This document shows positions 34,528 to 63,021 of a stretch of 64,000 nucleotides of DNA, in pieces. Below the pieces are notes generated by a model, which saw nothing but the letters and a program-made list of their open reading frames with translations, was not told where the DNA came from and did no database searches. This DNA comes from Coleophoma eucalyptorum (lineage: Eukaryota > Ascomycota > Leotiomycetes > Helotiales > Dermateaceae). Where the stretch lies: positions 1-64,000 of the forward strand of contig JALRME010000049.1 of assembly GCA_026120035.1 (NCBI GenBank), in the 5' to 3' direction. The translations under genes and the position numbers were made by a program. The first letter of the stretch is position 1. Each line of letters opens with the position of its first letter.

Positions 34528-36670
34528 ATGAAGAGCTTCCTGTCCTTGGGTGCAGCCACCTCTGCACTGGTGTCTTCCGCCTTGGGACATTATGCCAATG
34601 CTCCTAGCGCTCTTGGCCTCGCAGTTACTCATATAGCACCTAGTACTGCTACAAATGCGAAGCTGTTCGACAACGAGGCCATTCAGTTAACCGACGGAGT
34701 ACTTGCCAACGTCAGCGCCGTGCTTCAAAACGAAGCGCTTTCCAGCTACTTTAATTTTGGCTCAGCAAATACCACCAATGACGCCTTTGAGAAGCGAACT
34801 GCAAAGCATTGTAAACTGCTACCCGGTGATAAGGCATGGCCTTCACAGTTTGTGTGGTCTATATTTAACCTTCTCCTGGGCGACAGACTGATCAAGACTG
34901 TGCCCTCGGCTGCACCTTGTTACCCGGACTGGCCCGAGTATAATGTCACCGAATGTGCTGCCATCTCGGCAAACTGGGGTGTTTCTGATTTCCAGTAAGT
35001 TTGCTGGGTAATTTCTGGGTTACAGGTTACTAACGCAATATCAGCATGGTTGACCCAACTTCTATCATGCTGCCACTTTACGAAGGCCGTACCTGTTTGC
35101 CACCTGGAGTCGGTCCCGTAGATAACTGCACCCTTGGAGGGTATCCTTCATACGTAGTCAATGCTTCGAATGTCGCTCAGATTCAATTGGCTGTTAACTT
35201 TGCCCGTAACGCCAATCTTCGCCTTGTTATCAAAAATACTGGTCATGATTTCAGTGGAAAAGCTTCAGGTGCTGGAGCGCTTTCCATCTGGACTCATTGG
35301 ATGAAGGATAAGACGTATTTCCCCGAGTATAAAGCTGCCAATGGATATCGTGGACCAGCAATCAAGGTTGGCGCCGGCTTTCAGGTGTTCGAAGTCTACG
35401 AATATGCCAAGAGTATTGGCATGACTGCCTTGGGTGGTGAGGGCAAGACGGTTGGAATGGCAGGAGGATGGACTGCAGGTGGAGGCCACTCTCCTCTGAG
35501 CAGCATGTATGGTATGGGGGCGGATCAAGTCTTGGCTATGGAAGGTAAGATAATTACAACAAAACTATAAGGTACTTTTTGCTAACAAAAAAAGTGGTCT
35601 TGGCGGATGGACGTTTCATTACTGCCAATTCAAAGGTGAACTCCGACATCTTCTGGATGCTCAGAGGTGGCGGAGGCAGCACGATTGGTGTTGTGACCTC
35701 ACTGACCGTGAAGGTGTACCCAAAGATGATTGCTACTACTGTTGCATTCAACTTCACCGTCGGCACCAACGTCACACAAGCTACATTTTGGAAGGGAGTT
35801 TCAGCATACTTTGACAACTTTGAACGCTACGTAGATGCTGGATGCTATGGATATTATTATCTTGGCGCCGGCACCCATCAGACTGGTAATGATGGCAGTG
35901 GCATCTACTATCTTAGGATGCAATCTTTCTTTGCGCCCAACATGACGGTTGCAGAGACGCAAGCTCTCCTGGCACCGTGGATGAACAGACTTGCCGAGCT
36001 TGGTATTCCTGTAAACCCGATATATCAATTCTCGGATAACTTCCACGATGCTTGGGCGGGTGCATTCCCTCAAGAATTCGTGGGAGGTGCTACGGTCAAG
36101 ACTGCTTCGCGACTCATGCCCAGATCAGTCTTCCAAGACACAGCCTCCCGAAAAGCCACCTTCCTCGCTCACAAGCAAGCTATCGTCAAGGTATGTCGAA
36201 CTGATGATTTCTGTACGTCAGCCATTAACATGAGTCTCTAGGATTTCTTCGTGGTGGGATTCCACATCTCCGGTACTGGTGTAGCCGTTGCACCACCAAC
36301 CGACAACGCTGTTCTTCCAGCCTGGCGCGACGCCATCAACCACGTAATTGTCGGCAAATTGTGGGATGCTAACGCCACCGTCCCCAAGATCATGACAGTA
36401 TGCGAGAGCGTGACAAATTTCATGGATGTGTTCCGCCTGATCGCTCCGGATTCTGGTGCATACATGAGCGAAGGCGATCTCAATGAACCAAACCAGACGC
36501 AGGCTTTCTACGGTGTTAACTACCCGAGACTGTATGCCTTGAAGCAGAAGTATGATCCCCATGGGGTTTTCTTTGCGCTTACGGCAGTGGGTGCGGAGGA
36601 TTGGGAAGTCCAGACAACGGATGGTTTCCCTTACTCATGGAATAATAACGGGAGACTGTGTCCAGTTTGA
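34528..36670 (+). CDS. Secreted FAD-linked oxidase (PCMH + BBE domains), isoamyl-alcohol-oxidase-like
   Basis: Four exons: 34528-34994, 35045-35544, 35595-36190 and 36242-36670; introns of 50, 50 and 51 nt; 663 aa. A signal peptide ([20 protein letters not shown]) starts the protein. Residues about 185-365 form the FAD-binding PCMH domain: [16 protein letters not shown] contains the His that commonly carries covalent FAD. The second flavin-linking Cys of bicovalent enzymes is not seen in [12 protein letters not shown], so the flavin is probably monocovalent. The C-terminal BBE block [18 protein letters not shown] and the end NNNGRLC are as in the mreA-type isoamyl alcohol oxidases of fungi. 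Such enzymes oxidise small alcohols, sugars or secondary metabolites with O2. Substrate unknown. Many N-glycosylation sites support secretion. Confidence 0.87.
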
Positions 36671-45254: not shown

Positions 45255-47139
45255 TCAACCATCAACGTGATCAGGGGACATAGCCATACTTAAGCGCTGT
45301 CCAAGAAGTTGCATTTCTGTGACCGATTCCTGCGAGTCTCCCCTAGCCTCCAGGATCTTTACTGCCCGCTCCTGAGAATCCCGCAATGGCGTAAGGTAAA
45401 GCTCCTCAACAATCGCCAACATTCCTGGTGGTACAACATGCGAATACTGTTTACTATGTAGAAAGAATAGTAGATTGGCTGCTGGCATATAGAACGGGAA
45501 GGCTTGTGCTAGATTCTGGATCAGTTCATCGTCGCTGATTTGTGCTAGTGATGTCAGGTCTGGAAAGAGGTAAGGTTGTGTTACTGCCAGTGCTTCTGTC
45601 GATGAGAAGATATCCTCGGATTTCCGTTCCTCGGCCGTGATTATCTCCTCTTTAAGCCACGCTACAGCTGAGCCTTTCAACGTCTCATACGGACAATGCT
45701 CCAAGGTGTCGGAGATAAATGTTAAGCGTAAGCGACCAGAAGGATGTGCATGTAGGATCGCCGTGCATAATACATGTGCCCCCGCACGCAAGGTGGGTGA
45801 AGGGTTGTTGGCTGACAAGAGCGATAATGTTTGAAGGTACTGCATGAATTCTTCATCTTCGAGCGGCCCTGCAACGAATTTATTGGAATTTTCGAGCCAA
45901 AGTCCTGTCGCGATTATTGCGTCAATAATTCCCGACGGCTCGCTTCCCGTCGTTTCTTGGCCACTAACACCTATGAACTGATTCACAAGCTTCATATGAT
46001 CTGGAAAGATCGAAAGGTCGGGTTGTGGGTTCTTAGCCTCGAACAGAATTGATGAAAATATGAAGTAGGTCAAAAGAAATAAGGCCCCGGCACGCGAGAG
46101 GGGAATGTCATCTGGCGATGATGGGTAATTTGCCTCAGGGTCGTCTTCATCGGACGATTTTACCTCAACCTTGAACACGGCATCTAGCAGAAATTCAGGA
46201 TCGGACATCCCAACATCTTTGGACACAGACTAAACGAAATCAGCTAGTGATGGAAGAACAAGAAAGGTCCTTACTCACCACAAGTCCACCAACGATGTTG
46301 TCCCGAATGGCAAGCGTTGGATCCTCCTTGAACATTTCACCAAGAGTCTTTCTAGCCACGACAACCTTTTTCGGCGCAAAGACTTCCTGCAGTCGAGAAG
46401 CCCATTCTAATGTATTTGCATTGACATATTCCTCCAATATATGCGAGACAAACGACTGAACCAGCTTTTCTTGAATTGCTTGTTCAGCGGGGTCCTCTTC
46501 CTGCGCTTCAGGGTCAGGAGCTTTTGGGTCTAGGGAGGAATCAGCAGTCGGTATTGTTATGCTGGATTTCCGACCAGGGAGCGAAGGTCGCTTTTTGCCA
46601 GAGATAGTATGTATAAATGATATGACAGCTGTTGTTGCCTGGGGTGAAGGTCGGTAAGAAGAGAGGATTGACATGAGGGAGGTGGAGAGAAAGCGTGAAG
46701 GATATCGCGTCTTGATTCGTGGGTGGACTATCGACAGCAAATCAACCAAAACACAGAATTTATCTGTATTGGTAGGTTCTGTTTGTTCGGTTTTGGGGTC
46801 ATTCTTCTCGCCAGAATTATCCCCAGCTGTGCCAACCAGATCGTGCTCATCCTCATCCAACTCTAGCAGAGTCAAAGCCTCCGTGATCTTCAACACAACT
46901 TCTCGAGGATTTCCAAGTCGTGCGATAGTCCCTAGGCATTTTTCTGAGCCTGAAATAGGAACCAGGAGGTGTATCAGGTCCCAGCCAATGTTCTGCGTCA
47001 ATTCCGGATCTTGCAGAATATCGTTCAAGGCGGGGAGAATAGCGGGGGATAGATGCGATTCAAGGATGGTGAGGTATGTGAGATAATCCGTAGCAGGTGG
47101 TAGACTTTCAGTAATTGCCTTGACAGGATCTGAAGCCAT
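45255..47139 (-). CDS. Ybp1/glomulin-type protein (YAP1-binding/ALF4 family, PF08568)
   Basis: Two exons on the minus strand: 47139-46279 and 46229-45255, joined in phase 0 across a 49-nt intron; 611 aa. Mostly alpha-helical, no TM or signal. Blocks such as LTYLTILESHLSPAILPAL, NIGWDLIHLLVPI, CLGTIARLGNPREVVLKITE, LSRAGALFLLTYFIFS and LRAGAHVLCTAILHAHP match the fungal Ybp1/Ybp2 (glomulin, ALF4) family. In yeast Ybp1 helps the peroxidase Hyr1/Gpx3 oxidise the transcription factor Yap1, and Ybp2 acts at kinetochores. The gene is a conserved housekeeping-type neighbour that marks the left edge of the terpenoid cluster. Assignment rests on remembered family pattern; a profile search would confirm it. 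Confidence 0.82.
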
Positions 47140-47663: not shown

Positions 47664-50327
47664 TCATATCTTTAGTCTATCTAACACGAGCCTCATAATG
47701 TAGTTCTCCTTTCCACTTTCTATCTCTATAGTCTGTATTCTTCGTTCTAGGTCTTCAAACAGCTCTTGCAACACGTCCTTCGTATATTCGAGACTTTTCG
47801 TTCGTCCCATGTGAGTTAGAATTTTCTGCTTTAGTTCAAAGCTTGATCTGCCTGCTACCCGGCGCTCTTGGAGGATGCTTTGGAGGACCATGTTCTCTGG
47901 TTCTGCATTAAGACAGTGTATGAGTGGCAAGGAGAACTTTCCTTCGTCGAGGTCTTCACAGAATCCTTTCTGGCTCGTATACTGAGTAGTACATGTATCA
48001 GTCTCAGAGGAAAGGGCCAAAAGGGGCAAGGAATGCGAACACATACATCGGGGGAGACTAAGTTCTGATAATCATCACGAATCTGAAAGAAGCGACCGAC
48101 AAGGGCCACAAAACCACTAACATCTGGAAGTCTGTTGTGTTTTAGTACCGTCCTACGGGTTTTTTTTGAATAGAGCCGCGTACGTTTGTTCTTCTGATTG
48201 TGCTGCCATAAATCTAGAAAGCATCCTAAAAAGCCCACCAGTTTCTGAAGAATATTAGCATTAGGCTCATGCTACAGGTTACATGCTCTTTACTATAGTC
48301 AACCATAGTCATATATTCTTCTGGCGTAGGACATTTGACATGGTTTGTCCAGAACAGATCCAGGCTCTGGCCGATGTGCAGATAGCGAAGCTCATCTACT
48401 ATTGTGTCAGCAATTCGTAAAGTTTCAAAAATTATCTTCATCACAGTTGACTCACCGATATATATGTTTAAGCACTCTGGATCCTGCAATTCCTGCACCT
48501 GTTGTAAGGACTTGACGAATAAGAAATTTGCTGCATTGATCGTCTGGGGAATGCCGAATATGGTATGGGTGCTTGGATGTCCTCGCCGCAGTGGAGAATT
48601 ATCTTCAATATCATCAAGCCTGCAGCATTGTCAGTATTTCTAGGGCGGATAGAATCGAACATATCCATACATCAACGATGAGCTATGTAGAGTGCTAATT
48701 ATGGATTTGATCTTAGCAAGGGCGTGCTCTGGTATATTATACCAGACATTGAGAGCATCAATTGCGGCATCTCGGATACCCTTGGAGGGTAGTGAGTGTA
48801 TATACTCGTAAGGTGCCAATACAATCTATAGAAACGTTAGGTAAATAAAATTGTCAAGACATTATGGCGCTGGATAGCTTACCTTATCGCTCAAACCTGG
48901 CAGTCCTAATTTCAATGCTACATTTTCTTGCTTTGAAGTCTCATCGGCATGGAAGGTTATCAGAGTCTGCCCTCCACTGTCCTTTTCAATCGAGTCTTGA
49001 AGACTGCGCGGCTTGTTTTCTACACATATCTCGTTCTCCTTCGCATATTCATGGTTATCTGGATCTGACTCGGAGTCTGACCTAGGTGGTGAGGATATAT
49101 CAGAGTACTCCCCAACCATATCATCGATCAAACAGGACAGTGATGAGTCGTTGTCCGATAACACATCACCCAAAGAAGCTGTATCCTTGACTGCCACTTG
49201 GAAATTGTAGCGCGGGCTATACTGGCTCCAGACAACATTTCCGCTTATACTCAGCTCTAGGGCAGAGAGATATTTCATCAGATCCAGTGATACTGTATTG
49301 CCGAATTGCACCTCGAATTTCTTCTTCTCTTCCAGATAATTGTGACAAGAGCTTGCAATCTTATCCTTACAAATTAGTTTGGCTTCATCTATACCGACCA
49401 TATGCTCTTTCATGATGATCCAAACAGCATTGGCCATGTCTTTCGAGCTTGGGTTTCGCAGAAAATCGTCATATTCTTTCTGCCATGAAAAGAAGTCATT
49501 CGCTAGCGCGAGTGTCTCATAAGCTGGCCGAGTAACATCTAGACTCATTTTCGCTTCTTCGTCGCTTATGGTCAACGCCATTGCATATGTGATTATACCA
49601 AACCAAAAGCTGTTATTAGGTGAGTTGTTGATATGAAATGATGGAAGGTGCACTTACGTCTGACCAAGATTTATGACTCTATGTGGAAGGTATTCCTCTA
49701 GCGTACGAAATCCCTGGTGCTGAGTTCCTGATTCGCCTTTCACAAGTCCTTCCCAGGACTTCAAAAGCACGAGTGCCCGTGGCCTGTCGATCGCTAGCAG
49801 CTCGAGCACTAGCTTTGCTTGCATTTGGGACTTCCCCGACCGTGAGACCTTTGGTGCGAACTCGTTCAAGGCCGCCTGGAAGCCATTTGCCATCTCATCA
49901 TTTTCGGCATCTCCCTAGAGTTGCAAAACTTAATAACACAGCAATTTCCAATGGTTTGCGCATTACTCACTTTCTCTTTCGTGGTGCTATCTAAAATATC
50001 TTATGATAATGTCAGTAAACCTCTTCTCTGCTCGGGAGTGTTTCACTCACCATCATGCAGGAAAGCAAACTCGTTTGCATATGTGACGACCTCTAGTCTA
50101 TCAGGAAGACACTCGGCAACTGCCACAGCGATTCCGTTATATTTTGGGCTTAAACAACCTGTAAAGTTATGGATGGGCCCAACGAATTTTCTCCAGTCTG
50201 CTTGAGCACGTAGTGATCCTTCGTCTGCTAAGTGGGCATATTTGCTGACTCGTAGTGGTAAAGATTCGCATAATCCCATAGAATCGTAGGTATTTGAGTC
50301 TACCAATTCTGAATATTGATACTCCAT
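47664..50327 (-). CDS. Bifunctional terpene synthase: N-terminal class I cyclase fused to polyprenyl (GGPP-type) diphosphate synthase
   Basis: Ten exons on the minus strand: 50327-50051, 49990-49971, 49914-49658, 49609-48883, 48825-48671, 48619-48456, 48398-48294, 48244-48184, 48131-48047 and 47981-47664, 722 aa. The N-terminal cyclase (about 1-320) starts MEYQYSELVD, has FAFLHDDSTTKE at 87-98 (first Asp motif, fifth position Thr instead of Asp/Glu) and an intact NSE motif NDFFSWQKE (222-230). A Ser/Asp/Glu-rich linker (about 330-400) follows. The C-terminal prenyltransferase has FARM LDDIEDNSPLRRG (Asp481-Asp485), KTGGLFRM formed across an intron, and SARM QIRDDYQNL (608-612), all intact. 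It is expected to make GGPP (or a longer chain) and cyclise it in one polypeptide, as fusicoccadiene-type synthases do. It is transcribed divergently from the P450. Product unknown. Confidence 0.93.
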
Positions 50328-51472
50328 CTTGGATGACTTTTGATGGTCTGATTTTTTCGAAGTAATCAATAGTTCTGATTTCGTTCTCTGCTGGACATTA
50401 AGCTCTTGAGGTGACAGAGAGCCCGCAGCTTATGGATTACAAGAATTGCCCGAAATCCAAGTAGACTATTGATATGATCCATGGCTACTTACTTGGCCAC
50501 TCAGAGGCCTTAGATTTTGAGGCATGGGTTTGTGTTGTTGGGGCTGTAGATAATGCTGAACAAATTATACAAGGGTAAGAATGTATATGATTTATCATGG
50601 TACGACGAACCAATGACGTGCGACTTGCTCTTCAGCTCTGTGCTTCAGTATCTTTATGATTGGACCGCTGAGGAAGCTTACATGCATCAGATGGATCAGC
50701 CTAGTAGATCCATTCCATACCTGGGGCTTACATGAAAACCATCGGAGTAAGCAAATTTTGACAGTGTTTAAAGGCTCTTAAGTTGCCTGGTTGCATTAAA
50801 AGAGACTTCGTATATGCTAGCGAGACTAGGTACGTACTTCTTGCATGTCTAACTAGGTAAGGTAGGTAGGTATAATGTGCCAGCGCAAATCAGCGCCAAA
50901 AATAATTACCGGAGGCCAATCGCTTGTTTGAGCGCCCATGCCTCAAACCGACGTTGTGAATGTTGGACATGCTGACATTAATAACTAGGCACTTAATGTC
51001 TTGTAAAACTTGAAATTTGCCTCAATAATTAATTGCTCAAATCAGGAAACGAGCGTCGATCTTGAGCGAGTACAAGCGACAAATATTTGGTAAGCCCACA
51101 GGATAAGCATGCGATCTTCCAATTTTCAGCCTTCATTACTAGCTTCCTCTGGCTTATTACCTCCCCAGCAACACAGTACGTAGCTATGCAGTGAATTTCA
51201 TGGCCGGAAGTTCCGACTTAGGACTCCGCAGTATCATGCACAAGGTACCCCCAGAGTCTCCTATATAATCGCTGCATCAGATTTGCCGGCTCAACCCCGC
51301 AGAGATAAGGGAAGATATCCGATGCAAGAATAAGAGAACAACGGGATTAGATGCTCGTTTTAGGTCCCCGGATGTAACTCAACAATACACCGTCCTGAAT
51401 CTTAGCTCTTCTCGCCTTGTCCCTTCTGATCTTTGATACTTTTCGTAGCAGAAAGCGTTTCTCGAAGCTTAG
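50328..51472. promoter_or_regulatory. Divergent promoter region shared by terpene synthase and P450
   Basis: About 1.15 kb, AT-rich, between the two divergent start codons. It includes a GTAGGTAGGT run at about 50860 and CpG/CpA steps consistent with mild RIP. The short ORF at 50553-50735 has no recognisable motif. No pathway-specific regulator site could be identified by eye. Confidence 0.5.
51263..51269 (+). promoter_or_regulatory. Candidate TATA box of the P450 gene
   Basis: TATATAA in CTCCTATATAATCGC, about 205 bases upstream of the P450 ATG. Confidence 0.45.
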
Positions 51473-53289
51473 ATGATGGCGTTTATGGATGTTATGTCGC
51501 TTTCAGTAGCACTAGAGCTTTCTGTTGTAGCTCTCATAGCATATACGCTGATCCTCACAGTCTACAGATTATATTTCAGTCCATTATCAACATTCCCCGG
51601 TCCAAAGCTAGCAGCAGCAACATGGTGGTGAGTGTACGGCCCAAGGAAACGTCATGCAAGAGGGCTTCCATAATTCTAAGGTTCACAAAGACTGACAGGA
51701 TACCCAGGTATGAGTTTTACTACGATGTGATCCTTCGGGGCCAATACATCTTCCACATTAAGGAGCTACATGAAAAATACGGCCCCATCATTAGGATAAG
51801 TCCTTATGAGATTCATATATACACACCAAGCTTTTATGACGAAGTGTATGCTGTATCTAACAGAAAGAGAGATCGATGGGCTTGGTCGACTCGGCCTGGA
51901 GGATTCGGCCTTTCAATTGGTGGTACAAATGCGCACGACCTACACCGGATAAGAAGAGGGGCTCTAGCGCCGTACTTTTCCAAGGCGAATATTAGGAGGT
52001 TACAATATACCATTGATGAAAAAGTGATGCAGTTGGTAGGTAGATTAGTCGAGAGCAAGACTCATGGGGAGCCATTCAAGTTGAACCATGGTTTTGCGGC
52101 ATTCACAAATGGTAGGTATCTAACTTCTTACGAGATATTCTGGCTAACATTTGGACTTGAAGATATTGCAATGGAGTATTCCTTTGGACGAAACGATAAC
52201 CGCTTAGCTCACAAAGGTCAGCAATTATTAGCCTACCCTAGCTTCTTAAGTACTAAATGAAACAAAGATTATGATCCTACCTTCCACGACAATTTTGTAG
52301 CGGGAGTGGGCCAGATAAATCTGCTCAGGCACATGTTTTGGCTCGAAAGAATTGCAAAACTTGCACCAGAATGGCTCCTGGCGAAAGTTTCATCCGTAGT
52401 CGCCATGTTCTGGGCGGAGAAGCAAGTAAGCACATTTTCCCAACTAACTGAATACGAGAGTTAATTGAAGCAGGCCATTACTGAACAGATCCAGCAAATT
52501 CTTAATGGATCAAATACAGCCCATCTTGACAAGGAGCATCCAACTATCTACCATGAGATACTTGGCTCCAAGCTTCCCGAGCATGAAAAATCACTTGACC
52601 GACTTGCTCAAGAAGCACAAATCACTATTGGCGCTGGAACACTTGCGACCGCCTGGACTCTTTCTGTGGGATGTTTTCACCTTCTGTCACCAGAATCAAC
52701 GCCCATATTGATGAAGCTGAGGCAAGAGCTTCTGACAGTACTTCCTGAACCTGACGGGAAAATTGATCTTGTGATCTTGGAGCGCATGCCTTATCTCACA
52801 GCCTGTGTGAAAGAAGCACTCCGCATGGGCAATGGGACATCAACTCGCTTACAACGCATAGCGCCAGAAGAAACACTTGTCTTTCCGGATCCTCAGACCG
52901 GTAAAGAATGGTCCATTCCAGCAGGAACCCCAGTCAGTTTGTCTTCACTACTTATACACCGAGATGAAAGCATCTTCCCTGAAGCTCGAAAGTTCCGGCC
53001 AGAACGTTGGATCGAGAACCCAGGTCTTGATCGATATTTGCTTACATTCTCAAAAGGTAGCCGTCAGTGTCTCGGTATGCACCTTGCCTATGCTGAGATG
53101 TATCTTACAATGGCGAGAGTCTTTAGAGCTTTTGGTACTAAGGAGCTTGAGGCAGCTGGGATAAAAAGCGACTTTGGCAACATTGAATTGTTTGAGACTA
53201 CTGAGAGAGATGTTATTTGTGTTGCTGACTTGATGGTTCCTGCTGTTTGGGAAGGATCACAGGGTGTTAGAATCAGAGTGACGGCCTGA
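51473..53289 (+). CDS. Cytochrome P450 monooxygenase of the terpenoid cluster
   Basis: Five exons: 51473-51627, 51708-52111, 52163-52216, 52268-52425 and 52474-53289, 528 aa. The start follows an in-frame TAG directly upstream. The N-terminal anchor is [19 protein letters not shown], then the [22 protein letters not shown] block typical of trichodiene-oxygenase-like fungal P450s. KEALR supplies the ExxR pair (Glu371, Arg374), FRPERW follows, and [10 protein letters not shown] is the heme signature with Cys456. The I-helix reads AGTLATAWT (311-319): the usual acid of AGx(D/E)TT is Leu314 and the next Thr is Ala315, an unusual loss of the acid-alcohol pair. It should hydroxylate or otherwise oxidise the cyclase product in the ER membrane. 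The first intron was ended at ACCCAG to give WWYEFYYD; an alternative acceptor adds three residues. Confidence 0.92.
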
Positions 53290-54666
53290 GTCAGAGGAAG
53301 TCTTTTGGTATTATTCAGTGCATGCCAAAATGTTAGACCACACCTGATAGAAAGAAACATTATAGTTAGATTTTATTTGGTGAAATTCAGCGAGCAGGAA
53401 GTAGCTGGTTGCTGCAGTACTATAATTTGGTTTTTTTACAAACTGTCCTTTATGATCCATTCCACCTCCCTCACTGCCCAAGGTCTCTTGAGTAGCGCGT
53501 CAATTTTGACTACTGTTAGTTCACTCAATGTTTGAATCGGTTTCATAGATTAGATCAAACACATTGAATGGCTCGACGAAGTCTAGGATTCATAGTTTCT
53601 CCACAGAAACATGTATGCAATGACAACAATGCTTCCGGAATGCCGTTATTGGTTCACTCCTTCCTGTGCACCGGCTATAATCAAACCTGGTTGAGGATAT
53701 CTCTAAGCAAATACACGCTAAGGGGGAAACGTCAGCGCTCAGGACGTTAACCCTACTAGCCAAAACATGCATAACGGAACCGAGGGGAACAGATGAGCCT
53801 TCCTGGAGAGCTTGTTATCTGCATTGCCTCAAGACATTGCATTCGACTTAATTTGTAATAAATATCACAAAGAAGAGCTCAGCAAGAGCATGGGAAGTGT
53901 TGGTGAACAGCAGTTCCTGTTCTGACCTAGTGCAATGACCGGGTACTTCAAAGGTGCTTCCGCTTGTCATCCGACTGCAGCTTAAATATCAAAAGTTTAC
54001 ATATATCAAGTATTGTACGGACTCCAAGGTCTTTTAATGAGGCTTAGCTGCCGAAGCTTACATGGCCCCATTCTTATGTGCATTGCATTGCCTTTTGAGC
54101 GTCGGCCGATTCACCTTATCAATGCCAGACAATCCTAGGACTATGATGCTATTGGTATCATATATTAACAATGTGTTCGAGTTATATACCGAATATTTGC
54201 ACTAAACGCAATTCAATAGCTGTCCCGGTATTCGCTCAGCGTGAGGAGACCTCCACGTATCTTGCTGACATGCATATGGTCCACTCTGGAGCGTCTGGTA
54301 TAGTAAGCGATCGTCGCTTATCCAAGACTTCGACCCTTGAAGGGATGGTTGGTGATGTAGATTCATCCACTTTGAAATGTAAACTTGATTTTAGATTCAG
54401 TGTATCTGCAAACTATCGAGGGATCCTATCTTATCATCCGAGGTCATATGTCGGGTATTGATCAAAGTACCCAATGATCAAGTTGAGCGACGAAATACCT
54501 GTAAAATAAGTTGCATCAAAGCACTCTCTGGGTTTCAGGGAAAATTGAAGCAATACAATATCAAAAAATTAAATTATTGTAAGTAGAGTCCAAATCGTGG
54601 ACATTCTCGATTATCGAGTTTCAAGAAAGCTTACCAGGAACCAACAAGGAAATCTATTCATACACA
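53290..54666. other. Spacer inside the terpenoid cluster
   Basis: About 1.4 kb, AT-rich. No gene; a 96-codon plus ORF at 54171-54461 has no motif. There is room for a lost cluster gene but no recognisable remnant. Confidence 0.45.
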
Positions 54667-56056
54667 ATGGCGACTACCACAATACAAACACCGCCGGTTT
54701 CTTTGAAACAGGAGCACAAGCCTCCAGCTGTTGCTATTAAAGAAAGAATGATGCAGCTCATGCAGCCCAGTCCAGATGATGAATACGAAGAAAGCCTCGC
54801 ACTCATCAAAAGCAAGATCTCAAAGATGACTGTTGTGAACGCGCTTTTCTCAGTGAATCTTGGACCCAATCATCCAACCATGATCATTGATGCCCGAGGA
54901 GAAAGTCCCGCAATATTGGAGTCTACAACAGAGGAATTAGCTGGCAAGGTCAGAATACGACCAAACACTATCAGGAGTTTTGTGGATGGTTTAATGGAAC
55001 CTCGATTTGCAATTAATTGGGGATACTTCATGGTCGAAGGGAAGCAAAGTGTTGGCATGAAGTTCATCGACGCTTTGGGCCCATACAATCCTTCAACGTT
55101 GGTTTTGAATTTAGAGGACGAGCTTCCTCAGCCCACAGAAGATATCACGCGAGCGAAGAGGGATCTGGAGGAATTTGGGTACAGTATGGTGAAAAATGCG
55201 ATCACTCCAGATGAAGTAAAGGCACTTTATTCTCGCCTCAAGGAGCAAGCTGCAGCAGAAACTACCTCTGGAGTTGCCCAATTTGATGGTGGTATGCCTG
55301 GTGCAAACAGTGGTCCTAATCAAAGGGTGTGGTGCTTAGCCAACAAAGGCCAAGAATTCTTGGATTTGCTCGAAACCAAAGTCATCGACCAATTTCTCCC
55401 GGAAGTCCTGGGTGAAAATGCCATCCTATTTAGCTATAATGCAAATATCGTAAGAGAGGGAAATATTCCAATGATTTTGCACACGGACCAAATCACAGTG
55501 AATGCCCTGGCCCCAAACAAATAATATGTGCTGATGAGTTCCGTCAGGTTCAACCCCCAGTTCGAGATATGGCCCTCGGCTTCAATATGTTCTTCTTTCT
55601 TGGAGATGGTGAGTAGAGCAGCTGCATCCTTTCGAGCAATAAACTGACAAATCATCAGTTACCAAGGAGACAGGAGGAACCCTAATCATGCCCAAGTCTC
55701 ACAAAGGACAAATTGCACCAGATGATCTAATAGACACATCTAACTTCATTTCAGTTGAGGGTCCAGCAGGAACTTGTTTAGTCCTAGACAGCCGTACGTG
55801 GCATTCAACTGGGCGGAATGTCAAGGCTGGTAGTGAGCGTCCAGCAATTATTGCATTCTTTGCAAGACCAGAAATCCTTCAGAACGAATCTTTTTATCTT
55901 TCCCTTCGACCCAACATCTTCTTCTCTTTGGATCCTGAAGTAGAGGCAGCATTAACGGACAAGGTAAAAAAATGGAGCGCTTGGAAGGAGATGGTCGTGG
56001 ATCGACAGCGGGATCCTATTGGAAAATTGCACACGAAAGAAGAGATTTCTGTGTAA
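54667..56056 (+). CDS. 2-Oxoglutarate/Fe(II) dioxygenase (PhyH-like) with N-terminal SCP2-like domain
   Basis: Three exons: 54667-55497, 55548-55608 and 55659-56056, 429 aa; introns of 50 nt. Residues about 35-130 (VNALFSVNLGPNHPTMIID, LAGKVRIRPNTIRSFVDGLM, NWGYFMVEGKQSVGMKF) align by eye with an SCP2 sterol-carrier fold. Residues about 160-429 are a phytanoyl-CoA-hydroxylase-like dioxygenase: iron ligands His272 and Asp274 in HTDQ, ligand His346 in DSRTWHSTGRN, and Arg in GSERPAII for 2-oxoglutarate. LGFNMFFFLGDVTKETGGTLIMPKSH is the core strand region. It is expected to hydroxylate or desaturate the terpenoid in the cytosol, with the SCP2 part perhaps holding the hydrophobic substrate (inference). 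It is next to the P450 and in the same orientation. The first intron was set at GTGAAT so that HTDQIT continues directly into VQPPVRDM. Confidence 0.9.
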
Positions 56057-59701: not shown

Positions 59702-60217
59702 ATGCCCAGTAAGACGATTGTCATCAAACTTCCTGGCCAAGCTCCTTGTGCCGAAAGACTAGGCTGGGGGCTTATTATCCGGAGAATTTTACAAACCTTC
59801 TTTTTTATTTTGGCGGCAGTTGACTTCCCAAATTTTGCCAGAAACGGGTTCCTGCTTGGGGCTGGTTGGAGACCTGTTGCTCTAGACCTGTGCCGGAGCC
59901 TACTGCAATTGATATCGATGAATATAGCAGCGTATTGTCTATGTGTCGACATTTCTGTTCATTTAATCTTAACACATGCTGGCAAAGTAAAGATAGCATC
60001 TCTAATTGGGTTTGAAACTAAGTATTATATATTGATATCTACCGCCAGCATGCTATCACTAATATATTCAAGAGATCCACTTTACGAAATGCTCTGGAGC
60101 ATTTTGTTTTTTGCCATCTTCACTTCTTGTACATACTGCCTGAGTAGTTATTGGACAATTAACCTCCAATCCAGGCAGAACGCATATGCCTCAAGCTGTA
60201 TGCAGTCAATAACATGA
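59702..60217 (+). CDS. Unknown multi-pass membrane protein
   Basis: Single open frame of 171 aa from an ATG. Three or four hydrophobic segments are visible (LQTFFFILAAVDF, LLQLISMNIAAYCLCVDI, YYILISTASMLSLIYS, MLWSILFFAIFTSCTYCL). The layout, with short loops such as FARNGFLLGAGWRPVALDLCRS, resembles small fungal wax-synthase-like or orphan membrane proteins, but no catalytic motif is seen. Moderate composition and length make it a plausible gene; further exons cannot be excluded. Confidence 0.45.
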   Translation: MPSKTIVIKLPGQAPCAERLGWGLIIRRILQTFFFILAAVDFPNFARNGFLLGAGWRPVALDLCRSLLQLISMNIAAYCLCVDISVHLILTHAGKVKIASLIGFETKYYILISTASMLSLIYSRDPLYEMLWSILFFAIFTSCTYCLSSYWTINLQSRQNAYASSCMQSIT

Positions 60218-61214: not shown

Positions 61215-61389
61215 GTTCTCCTGGCTAAGCTTGGAAGGATACAGCGACCTTAAAGTACCAGCTCGCCAGAATTATGCATCACGATAATTTACTGCGTAAT
61301 TAGTTGAATCCTGGCAGCGGAGTTTTAAATGGCTTACCTTTCAACACATCCTCGTAAATCTCTTGTAAGGGGGTATTTTTCTTCGTATT

Positions 61390-63021
61390 TGCCGTGTCCC
61401 CGTCTTTAGAAAAGATAAAGAATGGATCTCCAAGGACATTCGCGTAAACTCTGTCACCTTACCTGTTATCTGGTTTGAAGAGGCGAAAGATAAGACCCTG
61501 GAAGCTGCAAAGGCTGCAGGGTTTGGAAGTCGACCTTTTGATGAAGTCTTCACAATTGCTGAGCCAGAAGCTGCTGCAATTGCCACGCCCAAGCTGTATT
61601 CTGAGCTAGACTCCATCAAGTCAATTACGGTAAGCTCTTCATTAAATTCTTTGAATTTCCTGACCATGGCTAGGGAGGGGAGAATATCTTGCTCTGCGAC
61701 CGTGGTGGTGGCACAGTGGATATCACGACTTACAAGATCACTTCTATCTCACCACGACTAGAGTTTGGAGAGCTTTGCGTCGACGTTGGTAAGTCCATTT
61801 ACTAGGATCCCAGTAGAAAGAGTTAATTGTTCCTTTATAGGAGGCAAATGTGGTTCCACCTACATCGACCGTAGATTTACCGCTCTTCTCAAGGAACGAT
61901 TTGGTAAGGACTTTGAGAAGGTTCCCTCTTCCAAGAAAGGGCCTGGGAGCATTTTTATGGATGATTTTTAAAAGTCTAAGTGGAACTTTGGAAATGCCGA
62001 AGATGGGGGCAACCAGGAAATTGAGGGGATCAAAATGGATATTCCCGAGTCTGACTACTATGATGCCGAAGAGAACACTGTGTTGCTTTCAGCGTAAGCT
62101 CAGCTGGTGATTTTCTTGATATGGCGTACGCTAACAAAACAAATAGCTCCGATATGAAGAATCTCTTCGCTCCTGTTGTGGATGAAGTCATCAGACTAGT
62201 CACCCAACAGGTGAGGGAGGCTTCAGTGAATCCGAATTTCTTTTTACAGAACTTCAGAAGTGGTGCCTCGCCAATGGAAAGATCAAGCTTATGCGCCCAT
62301 CTAATCCGTATAGGCCCCTGATGTTAGCAATTCTAGACGTAGCTGACGCTTTTCAGCCAAGCTGCCGTAGCCCGTGGTGCAACTATCCGTGGTCTCGAAG
62401 GTCTTGCGCCAAGTTTAAAGCAATGTCGACTGCATTACGGATTCAAAATCAATAACCGTTTTAGAGATGGTCTTGATCCAGAGCGATATTCTTATATAGA
62501 TGATTTCGACAACAAAAAGTATTGCAGAAATCTAATTTTGGTGGGTCGTTGCGAAGGTTGGTTTATGAAATAGGGCAGCATTGTCTTTGCATGCTAATGT
62601 AACTAGAGTGACACAATTTATCCAGGAACCAGCAAGTTACATAACATAAGACAGCAGTATGAACCTGGGCAAGACATATTTGCAGATATAGAACTCTATT
62701 CCTTCGCCCAGGAAGTGCCACCTGACTATACATCTATTGATGGTATGATATATATATCTAATTAAACTGGACATTTGGAGCTAATTGATTTTGAAAGTAG
62801 GTGTTCAAACAGTTGGAAGAATTAAAGCCAAAATTCCATCCACATTTGACTTGACGGGTGCTACCAAATCAAGATTCGATCCTAGGCTTGGGAAGACTAT
62901 CTACGAATGCAAACCAGCAGTCAAAGTTACCTTTGGAACCAAAGAAGGTAATTTAGAGTATGAGATTTTGATTAAGGATAAGGTCGTTGGCTCTGCCGGT
63001 ATCACCTTTCCGCACAACTAA
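61390..63021 (+). pseudogene. Hsp70-like (actin-ATPase fold) protein, broken and 5' truncated
   Basis: Exon-like blocks in order: KEWISKDIRVNSVTLPVIW then EEAKDKTLEAAKAAGFGSRP and FTIAEPEAAAIAT; after an intron CDRGGGTVDITTYKI; after another GGKCGSTYIDRRFTALLKERFG; later SDMKNLFAPVVDEVIRLV, KWCLANGKIKLMRPSNP, AVARGATIRGLEGLAP and the C-terminal FRDGLDPERYSYID to SAGITFPHN. This is the divergent Hsp70-like family expanded in filamentous fungi. Breaks: an in-frame TAA at 61969-61971 between IFMDDF and KSKWNFG; a missing VGGFGSS-type block and a frame change around 62225-62260; and no N-terminal DxGTT phosphate-loop upstream, where the antisense ORF lies instead. Introns still have good splice ends, so decay looks recent. 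Confidence 0.8.

Follow-up and report, generated by a model that had tools for sequence, protein, structure and literature searches.

The question raised by this stretch of Coleophoma eucalyptorum DNA, the first 64 kb of the 190,713-bp contig JALRME010000049.1 (assembly of 45.26 Mb in 101 contigs) and hereafter the window, is whether three adjacent genes, encoding a chimeric terpene synthase, a cytochrome P450 and a dioxygenase, constitute a terpenoid pathway of their own. On balance, we favour the view that they form a compact biosynthetic cluster whose product would be an oxidised polycyclic terpenoid, and the sequence suggests that this cluster is real and probably working. An earlier note on this DNA had proposed the same minimal set, which is supported by intact genes of 10, 5 and 3 exons that carry catalytic motifs.

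Three intact genes and their domains

The genes span 47664-56056: the minus-strand synthase gene ends with its stop codon at 47664, and that of the dioxygenase ends at 56056. All three reading frames are free of internal stops and their splice sites are usable, and the best match of each protein is a Coleophoma record, with identities of 84-93%. A silent or decaying cluster would be compatible with the fact that the cluster is known from genes alone, but the intact frames, the usable splice sites and this identity to proteins of other species make such a state very improbable.

The synthase gene (47664..50327, minus strand) encodes 724 aa in 10 exons (50327-50051, 49999-49971, 49914-49658, 49609-48883, 48825-48671, 48619-48456, 48395-48294, 48244-48184, 48131-48047 and 47981-47664). 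The protein has the layout of a prenyltransferase-terpene synthase (PTTS), with an N-terminal class I cyclase (49198..50327, minus strand, approximately residues 1-325) and a C-terminal prenyltransferase (47664..48894, minus strand, approximately residues 427-724) in one chain. The metal-binding motifs that define PTTS cyclases in the available text of PMC8307374, DDxxD/E and NSE, are present as DDILD (92-96) and NDFFSWQKE (225-233), and the prenyltransferase holds both Asp-rich motifs, DDIED (484-488) and DDYQN (610-614).

Two shorter synthase models were rejected. A 717-aa model carried an odd DDSTT motif, and this loss of the third Asp of DDILD proved to be an artefact of splice choice; one acceptor was moved upstream to an AAG, which gave DDILD as in aligned relatives. 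A 720-aa model contained two less fitting acceptors, and these were set to agree with P0001 from Coleophoma cylindrospora, which is 90% identical over the full length (measured with the 720-aa model). P0001 is also 724 aa long, agrees with all three re-placed acceptors and has the same DDILD letters. The coordinates given for the three genes in the earlier note stood, while its synthase length of 722 aa gave way to 724 aa.

The P450 gene (51473..53289, plus strand) encodes 528 aa in 5 exons (51473-51627, 51708-52111, 52163-52216, 52268-52425 and 52474-53289). P450s are marked by a FxxGxRxCxG heme motif, an ExxR motif and AGxxT in the I-helix, and the window protein has the heme motif FxxGxRxCxG at 449, ExxR as KEALR at 370 and GAGTLAT in the I-helix at 310. 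Its start codon diverges from that of the synthase across 1145 bp (50328..51472), which could possibly be a promoter region common to both genes.

The dioxygenase gene (54667..56056, plus strand) starts 1,377 bp beyond the P450 stop and encodes 429 aa in 3 exons (54667-55497, 55548-55608 and 55659-56056), combining an SCP2-like part with a PhyH-type Fe(II)/2-oxoglutarate (2OG) dioxygenase. In PhyH-type dioxygenases an HxD...H triad binds the iron and an Arg binds 2OG, and all four residues are kept (H272, D274, H346 and R358). The exon junction LHTDQITVQPPVRD fits the consensus LHTDQIxIQPPIRD of 42 relatives. The deposited C. crateriformis record P0121 is without the HTDQ iron-ligand stretch, of which the H and D are invariant in the 42 relatives, and the gap is probably due to a misplaced intron in that record.

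The domain calls of the earlier note for all three genes agree with Pfam and the motifs. Pfam assigned PF00348 (E 8.3e-55, residues 427-653) and PF19086 (E 2.6e-17, residues 86-272) to the preliminary 717-aa synthase model, PF00067 (E 8.2e-46) to the P450 and PF05721, PhyH (E 3.5e-14) to the dioxygenase. The SCP2 fusion, also named in the earlier note, was supported by structure modelling. SCP2 (PF02036) was absent from the window dioxygenase at E<=1, and a six-frame SCP2 scan of the whole genome gave a sole match on another contig (C16), outside the dioxygenase gene; 27 of 42 relatives have an SCP2 Pfam match at E<=0.1. Because the VIA matches of the full-length model cover mainly residues 156-427, the N-terminal domain (54772..55110, plus strand, approximately residues 36-148) was modelled separately. 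The AlphaFold2 model has a mean pLDDT of 89.7 and matches SCP2 structures in Foldseek and VIA with moderate scores, so that the predicted fold of this part is SCP2-like.

The synthase branch and its likely chemistry

The relation to fusicoccane-type synthases that the earlier note had drawn is supported by cyclase scores against solved structures, where PaFS ranks top (274.9 bits), followed by TvTS (240.3), EvAS (225.9) and EvSS (222.6), with lower values for FgGS (150.9), sesterfisherol synthase (102.3) and PbSS (82.1); variediene synthase scores 507.1 bits across the whole protein (all with the 717-aa model). Cyclase-domain identities are 94% to P0001, 65% to P0002, 61% to P0004, 45% to P0003 and 42% to PaFS.

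For the synthase trees we took the best 120 of 213 relatives, removed three short rows and added EvSS and EvAS; the careful tree has 79 rows, since 41 of the 120 were set aside for long branches, duplication or redundancy. The window enzyme falls into a four-member clade with those of C. cylindrospora, Talaromyces pinophilus and T. marneffei (support 100/99, stem 0.44). A quick tree, which came with a warning that long branches meet, recovers the same clade (SH-aLRT 99), and PaPS is still long (1.24) in the careful tree. In both trees the clade stands apart from PaFS, PaPS, EvSS and EvAS, the only rows tied to a characterised product. Among the sequences comparable here, this branch appears to be without a characterised member, and the expectation that the window enzyme has no close characterised relative was borne out by its place outside those groups.

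The label fusicoccadiene synthase, the name of the Coleophoma relative, is not supported for the window enzyme, which lies apart from PaFS in the tree and has Y218 and L221 at the PaFS pocket residues W225 and V228. This name, carried by P0001, seems to have been transferred from other proteins, as do ophiobolin F synthase for P0002 and trichodiene oxygenase for P0241; P0001 and P0002, differently named by product, sit in one clade. Database names within this branch are unreliable as product predictions.

The cyclase pocket was compared with that of PaFS. PaFS F65, M221, W225, V228 and M309 are replaced by G, T, Y, L and L in the window synthase, the other three clade members carry the same pocket letters, and F89, H91, F196, W197, S312, N316 and W319 are retained. 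Several of these positions are tied to the chain size that fits, according to the available text of PMC9605422 and PMC9177416. Compared by eye, T214/Y218/L221 of the window enzyme is nearer to EvSS (C/Y/I) and EvAS (A/Y/M) than to PaFS (M/W/V), so that the cyclase would seem less suited to C20 chains than PaFS is. By chain-length determinants, the floor of the prenyltransferase (second F of NFLFV, H of LHIGQ) resembles C20 geranylgeranyl diphosphate (GGPP) synthases; PaFS, a C20 enzyme, is without those floor residues. The chain length would be C20 or C25.

These data also bear on whether the pathway yields a scaffold that has been described before, such as one of the known fusicoccanes or sesterterpenes, in spite of the low identity. 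In the available text of PMC8307374, the product of a known synthase is also reported for enzymes sharing 36% or 40-64% identity with it, and the cyclase, at 42% identity to PaFS, keeps H91 and F196/W197. We nevertheless consider a known scaffold doubtful, given the five replaced pocket residues and the position outside the groups holding PaFS, PaPS, EvSS and EvAS.

Several published clusters resemble the proposed one in part. The two-gene tad cluster (tadA/tadB; talaro-7,13-diene) of Talaromyces wortmannii is likewise a compact fungal cluster, with a fusicoccane-type diterpene synthase beside one P450, TadB, which is multifunctional (PMC9551204, available text). As described there, tad differs in being without a dioxygenase, and TadA has Tyr91 where the window synthase has His, as in PaFS; TadA was compared by its published description and residue 91, outside the synthase tree. 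For fusicoccin, the available text of PMC3411640 lists a 2OG dioxygenase among Orf1-Orf4, and PaFS is similarly a chimeric cyclase-prenyltransferase with a nearby 2OG dioxygenase and P450, from which the window enzyme is distinguished by its 42% cyclase identity, its placement outside the PaFS group and several replaced pocket residues. The asperterpenoid cluster (AstA/AstB/AstC) also has three genes with one chimeric synthase, but combines it with two P450s and no dioxygenase as far as its description in PMC9605422 is available, and is set apart on that description; AsTC is listed there as the maker of preasperterpenoid A. The novelty that the earlier note had suggested holds for the combination, which is a new variant, but not for small synthase-P450 clusters as such, of which tad and asperterpenoid are already described in the available texts. 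In titles and opening lines of abstracts, with few subscription journals covered, neither these Coleophoma genes nor a terpene dioxygenase fused to SCP2 appeared as a subject of study.

The same genome has two more loci of chimeric terpene synthases, each with cyclase and prenyltransferase matches, at C43:131213-133788 and C54:10806-12287 (pieces 27-58% identical to the window synthase). A prenyltransferase-only match at C16:172799-173723 (44-46% identity) looks like a GGPP synthase.

Ancestry of the oxidases and the proposed pathway

The best match of the window P450 is P0241 of C. crateriformis, at 93% identity; behind it come relatives from Oidiodendron maius (653 bits, 56% identity) and T. 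marneffei (646 bits, 57% identity). A 50-row tree was built from the window protein, the best 40 hits without one row that was too long, and ten additional hits. In it, these four proteins form a clade with support of 100/100, in which T. marneffei is sister to Coleophoma (98/76). Because synthase and P450 both show a Coleophoma-Talaromyces link, they are probably co-inherited and may be an inherited pair; the Talaromyces records of the two stem from different strain assemblies. The genome is rich in P450s, the best other match reaching 52% identity over residues 259-527.

The dioxygenase is 84% identical to P0121 of C. crateriformis, and its N-terminal part is 42% identical to that of P0122 from Exophiala mesophila. 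It shares its layout and iron/2OG residues with SCP2-PhyH fused dioxygenases such as P0122 and P0228 (Caulobacteraceae, with both Pfam domains), but of the 84 columns that are near-invariant in this family (conserved to at least 93% among 104 relatives) 12 are changed, 6 of them beyond residue 370. The C-terminal changes comprise R371L, Q373N, N375S, G405A and the loss of two Gly, and the protein also has an 8-residue insertion; essentiality of these conserved positions is not established, so they were not treated as family-defining. In the tree its stem measures 0.74, whereas the median end branch is 0.14, which marks the protein as a fast-evolved, divergent member of a widespread SCP2-PhyH family. 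Since it is fast-evolved and has lost several C-terminal invariants, the dioxygenase was probably recruited later. The three genes show no single common history, the synthase and P450 pointing to Talaromyces and the dioxygenase not. AndA, SptF, PrhA, FtmOx1 and AsqJ are 17-21% identical to P0122, a relative and not the window protein, over the catalytic part only and not the SCP2-like domain.

An alternative is that the cluster consists of the synthase-P450 pair only, next to which the dioxygenase would merely happen to lie, serving lipid or isoprenoid metabolism in general. We regard it as rather unlikely, although it fits a family that is widespread in fungi and has at least one bacterial record (P0228), the missing Talaromyces link, and the two-gene tad cluster, which in the available text of PMC9551204 shows that a cluster may consist of no more than a synthase with a single P450. 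On the other side, the dioxygenase has evolved fast, with family invariants lost, and among the candidates scored in its own genome no match of this type lay outside its gene, so that no second copy was found. Moreover, the C. crateriformis records P0241 and P0121 are both assigned to a contig of 3,394,507 bp, probably one and the same. Between P450 and dioxygenase of the window there is no stop-to-stop ORF of more than 104 aa, small ORFs in this interval being outside the family scan.

For the three-gene cluster that we favour, the domains suggest the following pathway. The prenyltransferase half would make a C20 or C25 polyprenyl diphosphate, as its domain and motifs indicate. The cyclase half would then ionise this diphosphate and form a polycyclic hydrocarbon, presumably by a C1-III-IV (11-5 membered) start, because the related PaFS (PMC9551204) and TvTS (PMC9177416) begin with this type of cyclisation in the available texts. 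The P450, probably co-inherited with the synthase, would oxidise the hydrocarbon once or more. Least certain is the last step, in which the dioxygenase may perform a further 2OG-dependent oxidation while its SCP2-like domain binds or delivers the greasy intermediate. A more specific proposal, which we put forward tentatively, is that the synthase branch makes an unreported scaffold that the SCP2-like domain of the dioxygenase itself feeds to the 2OG site, as a carrier-assisted terpene oxygenase. If the pathway is correct, three genes suffice to test it as a whole in a standard host, an unstudied terpene synthase branch gains its first product, and the SCP2-fused dioxygenase becomes a testable case of a lipid-carrier domain inside a terpene-tailoring enzyme.

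Several observations weigh against this cluster. The support for it comes entirely from gene structures, motifs, predicted folds and tree placement, and the adjacency of all three genes was observed directly in the window genome only. No row named Talaromyces occurs among the best 120 of 176 dioxygenase relatives (many unnamed), which gives little sign that, beyond Coleophoma, the synthase has this dioxygenase as a conserved partner. The pairing of synthase and P450 is itself incomplete, in that the P450 scores slightly higher with O. maius than with T. marneffei, whereas the best 120 of 213 synthase relatives include no row named Oidiodendron. Pocket and prenyltransferase floor give conflicting C20 and C25 signals. 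Finally, a search for promoter motifs shared between 50328-51472 and 53290-54666 found none above the range of a simple block-shuffle control (one shared 12-mer versus a shuffled mean of 0.36, maximum 5; 26 shared 9-mers versus 14.4, maximum 31).

Neighbouring genes and cluster boundaries

The Ybp1-like and DHHC neighbours named in the earlier note were recovered by a family scan: Kinetochor_Ybp2 matched two ORFs to the left, while DHHC lies to the right together with a ubiquitin-conjugating enzyme (UBC). GH5, a glycosyltransferase fragment and FAD_binding_4/BBE also matched on the left, and further left tannase, sulfatase, PAP2 (just below the cut-off), SPT_ssu-like and rhomboid families. The scan used single ORFs, so that short exons of multi-exon genes could escape. 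Within the flanking ORFs scanned no transporter, regulator or methyltransferase family matched, as the earlier note had held.

With no tailoring-type transporter or transferase family matched in the nearby ORFs scanned, the three genes might cover the early steps only, with tailoring genes at another locus. Fusicoccin offers a parallel, its genes having come to light in two clusters of unknown separation (PMC3411640, available text). Such a split pathway seems unlikely to us here, as no sign of a second locus turned up, though no systematic search for one was made.

Base composition points both ways on the discrete insertion proposed in the earlier note, a reading that it does not support. GC3 is 0.455, 0.423 and 0.435 for synthase, P450 and dioxygenase, close to 0.478 and 0.447 for the Ybp ORFs, 0.466 for DHHC and 0.444 for UBC (GH5, 0.626). 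For overall coding GC the cluster genes (0.445, 0.457 and 0.452) fall slightly below Ybp (0.480 and 0.476), DHHC (0.497), UBC (0.505) and GH5 (0.541). In 2-kb steps the cluster has a GC of 0.438-0.442, and the region at 60-64 kb is likewise low (0.426-0.436).

Four ORFs of at least 200 aa in the 10 kb past the window were inspected by eye. Two overlapping minus-strand ORFs at L016:1492-2702 (about 65.5-66.7 kb on contig C45) have zinc-finger-like Cys/His spacing, and a regulator may lie about 9 kb right of the cluster. Within the window, a hydrophobic ORF at 59702-60217 has no Pfam match, and ORFs at 61369-62573 appear Hsp70-like by eye, their scanned pieces being without a Pfam match. About 11 kb left of the cluster, plus-strand ORFs with FAD_binding_4 and BBE (35046-36667) indicate a berberine-bridge-type oxidase. 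The two Ybp1-like ORFs (45255-47139) have the same orientation and carry consecutive parts of PF08568; they presumably belong to a single gene that is interrupted near 46226-46240 by an intron or a break in frame.

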